Positions 24,950 through 52,574 of a DNA stretch of 64,000 nt are shown piece after piece. How positions within the stretch are numbered: position 1 is the first letter of the stretch; every line of letters starts with the position of its first letter. The translations under genes were made by a program, and so were the position numbers. The stretch spans positions 1 to 64,000 of the forward strand of contig CACHKE010000002.1 of the NCBI GenBank assembly GCA_902580335.1, given 5' to 3'. Source of the DNA: an uncultured Pelagibacteraceae bacterium. Its GTDB lineage: Bacteria > Pseudomonadota > Alphaproteobacteria > Pelagibacterales > Pelagibacteraceae. The notes beneath the pieces are model-generated. The model was not told where the DNA came from. It worked only from the letters and a program-made list of their open reading frames with translations, and made no database searches.

Positions 24950-25212
24950 TAAGGGGCGTTCTGTTGCCAGGTGCCCCAAGCCCCGTTTACCTAATTAACA
25001 AAGTTAATTAAGCAGCAAGTGCGTAACTTTCGTTAGCAATTATAATTAGCCCTTCACGGAGGAACAATTCCGAACGAAAGAATAGCCTTTAGTCACTCGT
25101 CGAATCTAGTTCACCCCCATAAGTTGTAAATGGTGGAGGTGGTGGGTACTGCCCCCACGTCCGCAATGGTTATTACGAAATTCGTTTATCGTCATAGTTG
25201 GAAATCCAACTT
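24950..25212 (-). ncRNA. ssrA: tmRNA, circularly permuted two-piece form
   Basis: Read on the minus strand, the gene begins with the acceptor piece: a GTTGG/CCAAC hairpin (25197-25210), then a T-arm GTGGG-GGCAGTA-CCCAC, then CACCTCC-A-CCA ending at 25131. A short intervening segment (25119-25130) follows, then the coding piece starting GGGGGTGAACTAGATTCGACG at 25118. GGGGGUG and CACCUCC pair over seven base pairs (one G-U), forming the split acceptor stem. Downstream are the tag reading frame, a stop-codon hairpin (TTAATTAAC/GTTAATTAG), and a GGGGC/GCCCC pseudoknot-like region ending near 24950. The permuted order is the known alphaproteobacterial arrangement. tmRNA frees stalled ribosomes and tags the nascent protein. 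The outer ends are estimates. Confidence 0.92.
25008..25037 (-). other. tmRNA proteolysis-tag reading frame
   Basis: Within the coding piece of ssrA, the frame GCT AAC GAA AGT TAC GCA CTT GCT GCT TAA encodes ANESYALAA. The C-terminal ALAA matches the degron recognised by ClpXP in other bacteria, and the start resembles the E. coli tag ANDENYALAA. The resume codon is inferred to be the first GCT, because tags usually begin with alanine. The stop codon sits in the 5' arm of a hairpin, as in other tmRNAs. Confidence 0.85.
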
Positions 25213-25252
25213 TATTAATATAAAAGGAATTGCAAGAGATTCAATAACATTC

Positions 25253-51021: not shown

Positions 51022-51318
51022 TTATAAATAATCACTTTTTCTAAATTTACTAGAAATTTGTTTTCTAGAGTATTCAAATTTTTTTCTATGTTTTATACTT
51101 TTTTCATGAACTCTTTTTCTCCATAATCTAAAAGAAGATGGTTTTAGAGATTTACGCATAATTTTAATAACATCAGATTCTTTATAACCCGTTTTTTTTT
51201 TTATTTCCTCAAAGGTGATCCTGTCAGCCCAGGCAGCCCAAATGACCCAATCTGGATCTTCAACTTTTGGCTCTGGATTCTTAACTCTAGTTATAGGCCT
51301 GTGACTATTTTTTTTCAT
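51022..51318 (-). CDS. TIGR03643-family (DUF2805) small protein
   Basis: A 98-aa basic protein with the DPDWVIWAAWADRITFEEIKKKTGY segment and the MRKSLKPSSFRLWRKRV helix, which I recognise from the TIGR03643/DUF2805 group. It looks helix-turn-helix-like (FEEIKKKTGYKESDVIKIMRKS), and the C-terminus is very rich in Lys and Arg, so nucleic-acid binding is conceivable, but the function is unknown. It starts at ATG 51318 with AAAGGATTT just upstream. Its 5' side faces the structured intergenic region, and grxC follows it. Confidence 0.75.
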   Translation of the reverse strand: MKKNSHRPITRVKNPEPKVEDPDWVIWAAWADRITFEEIKKKTGYKESDVIKIMRKSLKPSSFRLWRKRVHEKSIKHRKKFEYSRKQISSKFRKSDYL

Positions 51319-51875
51319 AAATCCTTTATATTTGAAAAAAATTGATAATGCATTTTTTTTGGAATCTGATATATTAATGCTGATAGTCCTTCTTAGCCAT
51401 CTTTAGCTCCCGGTTTTTAAGGACTATCTTCTAAAAACTGAATTTAAGATATCCGATTTAAAAGCATTATCCCAAAATATTTAAAAACATCAGAATTATA
51501 AAAAATAAATCATTTTATTTTATGATTTAAATTTTTGATCATCAGACTGGTGTATTAAGAAAATGTGAATTATCCTCAGTTATTTCTTTTTGGTATTAAA
51601 TAAATTTCCAAATTTATTGAAAATTTAAAAAATTTGAAAAGTTCGATGCACTCATTAATTTGTCAAAGGTAAAGAAAGTTCTTTAAAATTCTTCATGAAA
51701 TATGAATCAACTAAAGTTAGAAAAATGTTTAAAAATGTACGTAATTTGTGTTGTATTATTGCAACATTTTAATTTTTTAAGAAAGAAATCTTTGAATATG
51801 AGAATATTTTCTTAAAAAAATTGTTTTTTAGTGGTAAAAACTGCAAAAATTAACTTTTAAACAAAAAGGGTATAT
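51319..51875. other. 557-base intergenic region
   Basis: The largest gap without a convincing gene. It lies between the minus-strand TIGR03643 gene and the plus-strand outer-membrane protein gene, so it should hold promoters for both. The left part (51344-51471) has nested inverted repeats, described separately. The rest is A/T-rich with a weak GTTG...CAAC hairpin near 51750. Several very short frames can be drawn but none has support. The long 5' region before the outer-membrane gene could be a regulated leader. Confidence 0.7.
51344..51471. ncRNA. Candidate structured RNA or cis-regulatory leader (orientation unresolved)
   Basis: Three inverted repeats are nested in order: GATAATGC (51344-51351) with GCATTATC (51464-51471), AATCTGATAT (51363-51372) with ATATCCGATT (51449-51458, one mismatch), and GATAGTCCTT (51382-51391) with AAGGACTATC (51419-51428). 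Together they form a rod with two internal loops and a 27-base terminal loop that contains the only GC-rich bases around (AGCTCCCGG). On the minus strand the closing helix is followed by AATTTTTTTT, which could terminate transcription just before the TIGR03643 gene. On the plus strand the loop would present CTCCC. The structure is seen by eye; there is no recognised family. A small regulatory RNA, a leader, or a 6S-like RNA are options. Confidence 0.5.
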
Positions 51876-52574
51876 ATGAAAAAATTTTTAATAACAGCCA
51901 TTGTTATGCTGTTCGGTTTTGTCTCTAGTGCACAAGCAGAGATGAAAATCGGTGTTACTGCAAAAGCAGGCGGATTTGAAGTAGATGATGCTTCAGAGAC
52001 GTTTTCTGGTTCCCACTCAAGTGGATCAGCTGTAGGTGATGTGACTGTAAAAGCATCAGCAGAGGGTGATGAAGCAGAAGGTGCATTCATTTATGGTTCA
52101 GTCTTCCTTGAGAAACAAGTAAATGAAAAATTTTCACTTGGAATAGATTACGTACCAATGGCAATGGAGTCTGAAACAACTGAAAACACAGTTAACCATC
52201 AAGCACCAGGTACTGGTAATGATGCACAAGGAACTAACACTGTTCAGGTTGATTTTGAAGATCTAACTACTATCTACGCACTATTACACGCAAATGATAA
52301 CGTTTATCTAAAAGTTGGTTACATGGAAGTTGATGTACAGACAAACGAAAGTTTAGCTACAGGTGGTGCATACGGTAATACTACTTTAGAAGGTTACACT
52401 GTTGGTCTTGGATATGACCATGATATGGATAGCGGTGTTTTTGTAAGATTAGAAGCAACCTACATGGATTTAGAAGGTGCTACACTAACAAACGCAAATG
52501 ACTCAACTAAAAGCGTACATGCTGATGGTATAGTTGGTTATGGTGCTGGAATATCAATAGGAAGAGCGTTTTAA
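51876..52574 (+). CDS. Small outer-membrane beta-barrel protein
   Basis: A 232-aa protein with a clear signal peptide (MKKFLITAIVMLFGFVSSAQAE, cut after AQA) and a mature part of alternating amphipathic strands ending in Phe (ISIGRAF), the usual C-terminal signal of outer-membrane barrels. The size fits an eight-stranded barrel of the opacity/OmpW type. It is acidic and rich in Gly, Thr and Ala, unlike its Lys/Asn-rich neighbours, and codons are more GC-rich. A ribosome site AAAAGGG lies upstream, and a strong terminator lies downstream, so it is probably a highly expressed single gene. Its ligand is unknown. Confidence 0.8.
   Translation: MKKFLITAIVMLFGFVSSAQAEMKIGVTAKAGGFEVDDASETFSGSHSSGSAVGDVTVKASAEGDEAEGAFIYGSVFLEKQVNEKFSLGIDYVPMAMESETTENTVNHQAPGTGNDAQGTNTVQVDFEDLTTIYALLHANDNVYLKVGYMEVDVQTNESLATGGAYGNTTLEGYTVGLGYDHDMDSGVFVRLEATYMDLEGATLTNANDSTKSVHADGIVGYGAGISIGRAF

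Follow-up and report, generated by a model that had tools for sequence, protein, structure and literature searches.

Trans-encoded antisense sRNAs that cover ribosome-binding sites are short RNAs with their own promoters that pair with unlinked targets over both the Shine–Dalgarno (SD) sequence and the start codon. Some alphaproteobacterial sRNAs carry an anti-SD sequence (CCUCC) in their hairpin loops. The rhtB RNA (Rfam RF01814) was described by Meyer et al. 2009, from Candidatus P. ubique and marine metagenome sequences, as one bulged hairpin close to rhtB, probably acting in cis, with no target named and its role left open between regulation and termination (PMC2704228). SAR11 bacteria have few protein regulators and are thought to lean on post-transcriptional control (PMC13198564); the literature searched yielded no sRNA–target pair for SAR11 and no later work on the rhtB RNA, the microprotein described below, or Pelagibacter sRNAs.

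Here, we analyzed a copy of this RNA in a 64,000-nt stretch of DNA from an uncultured Pelagibacteraceae bacterium (the window). What is new is that the loop of this catalogued RNA is, as read from the sequences, antisense to the translation start of one unlinked microprotein gene; a trans target with joint changes on both sides is thereby proposed, in place of the earlier cis role. Most likely, the element is a ~50-nt trans-acting antisense RNA that represses translation of a basic, histone-like microprotein.

The RNA lies in a 557-nt intergenic stretch (51319–51875), bordered on the left by a minus-strand TIGR03643 gene (51022–51318; 94.2 bits), relatives of which were not found in viral contigs, and on the right by a plus-strand gene for a predicted outer-membrane barrel (51876–52574; weak family match). 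The RF01814 match (51364–51446, plus strand) scores 77.7 bits in cmscan and covers the full model (1–83), above the gathering score of 55 bits. It is the sole Rfam RNA in this region; riboswitch and 6S RNA, named for comparison by the original prediction, give no Rfam match. Elsewhere in the window, a permuted two-piece tmRNA typical of alphaproteobacteria is present at 24950–25248 on the minus strand (RF01849/RF04321). The hairpin, the loop, and the context near TIGR03643, rhtB, and proC are those of the described rhtB RNA (PMC2704228), but the window copy lacks both rhtB and a U-run. Downstream of it, no rhtB is found, with proC and liv genes further on; the outer-membrane barrel gene occupies the usual place of rhtB, ahead of proC, and the non-coding stretch 51429–51875 is unusually long for SAR11.

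The core of the element is a 47-nt hairpin (51382–51428, plus strand; −16.1 kcal/mol) formed by a 10-bp outer stem (51382–51391/51419–51428), a 3+3 internal loop, a 4-bp inner stem (51395–51398/51412–51415), and a 13-nt loop, AUCUUUAGCUCCC (loop proper, 51399–51411). Compensatory changes are seen at three pairs of the stem (6, 9, and 10), where both sides have changed among relatives, and in the inner stem of the g24 copy a C-G pair is replaced by U-A (AGUC/GAUU). A 156-nt region around it folds more stably than its shuffles on the plus strand (z −3.87) and more weakly so on the minus strand (z −2.32). The loop, UUAGCCAUCUUUAGCUCCC, is near-invariant and the most conserved part of the hairpin; the GC-rich terminal loop singled out by the original prediction is real, and it is the key feature of the element. 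The original prediction had also nested this hairpin within two further helices in a 128-nt architecture. All three arms exist in the sequence and the inner hairpin is conserved, but the outer helices are not, and they occur at chance level for AT-rich sequence: 20 outer pairs are counted in the window, and at least 18 arise in 20% of trials with shuffled flanks; the mean is 11.1 among relatives and 10.5 when flanks are shuffled. The left outer arm, GATAATGC (51344–51351), belongs to a conserved upstream block, TAATGC, and there is no homologous right outer arm because the 3′ flank is the start of rhtB, 5–15 nt past the hairpin, in 58 of the 73 genomes that carry the RNA (91 same-genus genomes searched).

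The conserved block upstream, TAATGC (51346–51351, plus strand), resembles a −35 element; it reads TTAATGC or ATAATGC at a near-constant distance upstream of an extended −10 element in most of 72 relatives. The latter, TGATATATT (51367–51375, plus strand), lies 6 nt ahead of the hairpin, and in 72 of the 73 genomes a −10 element of the TGnTA type (TGnTATaTT) precedes the hairpin by 6–8 nt. We infer that the two blocks form a promoter, which, given the position of the −10 element, would start the RNA at about the hairpin base. The plus strand is also indicated by wobble pairs in the stem, which read as G-U three times on the plus strand and never on the minus strand. A minus-strand leader or attenuator for TIGR03643, suggested earlier, fits poorly: its closing helix is not conserved, and the minus-strand ORF that starts in the loop usually reads MAR-stop. 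A leader peptide on that strand was rejected, since the ORF is not conserved. An intrinsic terminator or attenuator is not supported either: in the window no U-run follows the conserved stem, and where a U-run does follow a helix, on the minus strand, that outer helix is unconserved.

The target was found through a sub-threshold second RF01814 match in genome G084, which on inspection was the complementary strand of a translation start, CAGGGAGCTAAAG-ATG-GCT-AAA, where the coding sequence of MAKRRKKAKKKAKKKAKKRRRRR begins. In the window, the stretch TTAGCCATCTTTAGCTCCC (51393–51411, plus strand) is a perfect complement of GGGAGCTAAAG-ATG-GCT-AA, the microprotein start in related genomes, so that the loop is antisense to the region from the SD sequence to codon 3, GGGAGCUAAAG-AUG-GCU-AA, of an unlinked gene. 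When 92 same-genus genomes were searched with GGGAGCTAAAGATGGCTAA, allowing up to 3 mismatches, matches fell mostly in two places, the hairpin and the microprotein start, in nearly every genome, and a reversed control pattern gave almost none. Two places were again found for the 19-mer when the set was widened to more complete genomes, some of these places being inspected individually; in the GTDB genome collection there are at least 120 exact matches, all in Pelagibacterales records among the matches listed. The plus-strand small RNA with a CTCCC loop pairing a ribosome site, as originally envisaged, gains support from this complementarity; the idea of an anti-SD loop holds as regards pairing with a ribosome-binding site but not as a generic device, the match being 18–19 nt of antisense to one start site.

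The window’s own genome, whose assembly is 84.75% complete, contained no target with up to 3 mismatches by pattern, DNA similarity, or neighboring genes. Orthologues of both target-flanking genes were likewise not found in this assembly, so an assembly gap is likely, though unproven. The relatives are mostly single-cell assemblies. The window’s nearest relatives in the tree (G036, G060, G067, G085) have the fully matching form of the target, and the duplex predicted with their start region reaches −36.0 kcal/mol, the best of 867 other start regions giving −25.9. On cofolding, the predicted loop–target duplex opens the hairpin.

The microprotein gene sits between genes for a fadD-like acyl-CoA synthetase and a carD-like protein in all genera checked and is orthologous across genera, a core gene at one syntenic place. 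In the genus with the rhtB RNA it encodes 21–32 amino acids, nearly all K, R, and A, and strongly basic; where its flanks were read, they contain a TTGACA promoter and a strong terminator. Its leader contains a conserved palindrome, CGAATCA-n-TGATTCG, ~20–40 nt upstream of the ATG (L124–L190), which holds two GANTC sites and could thus act as an operator, be methylated by CcrM, or fold into a hairpin. In g14 the protein (L462:8440–8616) has 58 amino acids with PAKK/PAAKK repeats, which to us recall histone H1-like bacterial proteins; by comparison, the gene seems shortened in the genus with the rhtB RNA. No match was found in Pfam or NCBIfam. The microprotein may bind nucleic acid, in the nucleoid or the ribosome. 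A short peptide with its own strong promoter and terminator and an antisense RNA over its start also recalls trans-encoded type I toxin–antitoxin systems, in which case the basic peptide would be toxic and the RNA its antidote. We consider this decidedly unlikely, since the target, unlike those of such systems, is a conserved core gene that codes for a basic peptide and keeps its syntenic position throughout the family, even in members in which the RNA was not found, and since the peptide is not hydrophobic and extends to 58 residues with H1-like repeats in g14.

Evidence for a trans-acting antisense RNA comes from joint change within the genus. Both loci are held by 50 genomes, one unreadable because its target lies at a contig end; in all 49 others, the register UAGCCAUCUUUAGCUCCC : GGGAGCUAAAGAUGGCUA (18–19 nt) is kept with at most 2 mismatches. 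At mRNA position −1, the RNA has C and the mRNA G in 46 genomes, the RNA has U and the mRNA A in three (G037, G071, G079), and none is discordant (Fisher p 5.4e-5, ancestry ignored). In a protein tree of neighboring genes, C/G lineages separate G071 from G037 and G079 (supports 0.81–0.99), which implies about two independent double changes; G309 has the same U/A state on its RNA and mRNA sides. In two genomes the loop CUCCC has become CUCUC, with pairing kept by U-G. A point against the antisense reading is a C at target position +4 in 18 of the 49 genomes, which gives one internal C-C mismatch in the duplex. Extended complementarity to an unlinked mRNA start and co-change of the two sides are thus both apparent from the alignments, the latter in few independent events.

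Two further readings bear on this pattern. The hairpin could descend from the microprotein start, copied in inverted orientation, and retain only inherited similarity, with no present pairing role, as a long and nearly perfect match would be expected of a recent copy. This is scarcely credible, because sequence identity persists across deeply diverged genomes, where the flanks do not, because loop and target change jointly, and because a second, differently built hairpin has its own match in g12 and g19 (see below). Alternatively, since the target start is reproduced exactly on the minus strand (GGGAGCUAAAGAUGGCU), a minus-strand transcript could mimic that start as a decoy that binds its regulator, e.g., the microprotein itself. 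We regard this as highly improbable: the promoter-like elements and the G-U wobbles point to the plus strand, and where hairpin and target start differ, an antisense duplex would still accommodate the change as a U-G pair.

A cis-acting terminator or leader, as suggested by Meyer et al. 2009 (PMC2704228), would end upstream transcription or cover the ribosome site of the next gene, the match with the microprotein being incidental. The nearness of rhtB in most genomes speaks for it, as does a T-run of at least 6 after the hairpin in a minority of the 73 genomes. It nevertheless appears unlikely, since conservation is highest in the loop, which changes together with an unlinked mRNA, 15 of the 73 genomes (the window and 14 others) keep the hairpin without rhtB downstream, the window copy has no T-run, and g12 and g19 carry hairpins with matching loops at an unrelated locus. 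Where rhtB follows, the antisense RNA could also be a terminated or processed rhtB leader; the window copy shows that rhtB is dispensable to the RNA, and, lacking a T-run, leaves the 3′ end of the RNA unexplained there.

Beyond the genus, RF01814 is present in g22 and g24. In genera g12–g17 of family f1, there is no above-threshold match, only sub-threshold ones, several of which, among those inspected in other f1 genera, are the target’s own antisense strand. The microprotein gene was located in other genera by its first codons, independently of the start region. Within the genus that has the RNA, this region either stays the same or changes along with the loop; where RF01814 was not found, it varies: it reads GGGAGAAAAAA in g13, GGAGAGCAAAG in g14, and GGGAGATATA in g16, occurs in at least six versions of GGGAGCTNNNN in g17, and includes GGGAGCTGACA among its variants. 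In g14 G248 (1.2 of 1.28 Mb, 93%), the gene is present and an antisense hairpin was not found, two syntenic places included; the pairing of gene and antisense hairpin is therefore not a universal feature.

In g12 and g19, the microprotein start reads GAGGAACGGAG, and hairpins at another locus, with stems unlike that of the rhtB RNA, carry AGCCAUCUCUGUUCCUC; this second copy is GAGGAACAGAG in the majority of g12 genomes and differs slightly from it elsewhere. The stem is GCUCAAGAG/CUCUUGAGC in g12 and CUUUUCCAGGA/UCCUGGAAAAG in g19; the stems covary, and the hairpins match no Rfam family. They lie at one conserved place, between a recombinase-like gene and a membrane protein gene that we take from its sequence to be of the DUF502 type. 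A hairpin with the loop AGCCAUCUCUGUU was noted at about position 1500 in L416, L419, L431, L433, and L434 (g12) and in L413, L428, and L436 (g19). A contig in a g12 assembly (L438; G396:C29) has a g1-type microprotein gene and is probably foreign. Read on the antisense strand, the g12/g19 loop pairs with the local target over 18–20 nt, U-G included, with predicted duplex energies of −29.5 to −36.2 kcal/mol; the rhtB loop, paired with the same target, attains only −20.0 (targets were read directly except for G376, for which the target of its genus was taken). The hairpin appears to be a functional counterpart of the rhtB RNA, and its pairing and a TAGACA-like upstream block suggest its strand and start. 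On balance, we lean toward the view that Pelagibacteraceae acquired dedicated antisense hairpins at two non-syntenic loci, with unrelated stems and with loops that follow one core microprotein start through its changes between genera, by repeated origin or retargeting.

In the proposed mechanism, the RNA would begin with the base of its hairpin and expose a large loop, which, opening into the inner stem, would pair with the SD sequence, spacer, start codon, and codon 2 of the microprotein mRNA; the duplex would block 30S ribosome binding and lower microprotein synthesis. Since the loop is an antisense copy of a translation start, the RNA probably switches the gene off; we infer a discrete transcript, a duplex in cells, and repression, and the RNA could instead serve as a sponge or stabiliser. 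Like trans-encoded antisense sRNAs, it is short, has a promoter-like element and an unlinked target, and pairs over the SD sequence and start codon; unlike them, it seemingly has one dedicated target matched over 18–20 nt, rather than a short seed and many targets. Like the alphaproteobacterial anti-SD sRNAs, it has CUCCC in a hairpin loop, but its match runs through the spacer, AUG, and codon 2 and is thus target-specific. With trans-encoded type I toxin–antitoxin RNAs it shares antisense over the start of a very short gene.

The analysis assigns a specific, testable target to the orphan Rfam RNA RF01814, brings to light an uncatalogued microprotein gene, and offers a case for following the change of an antisense RNA and its target together across genera. 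Should loops at two loci indeed follow the same microprotein start, a single core gene in a streamlined genome would have an antisense RNA dedicated to it, one that repeatedly originated or was retargeted.
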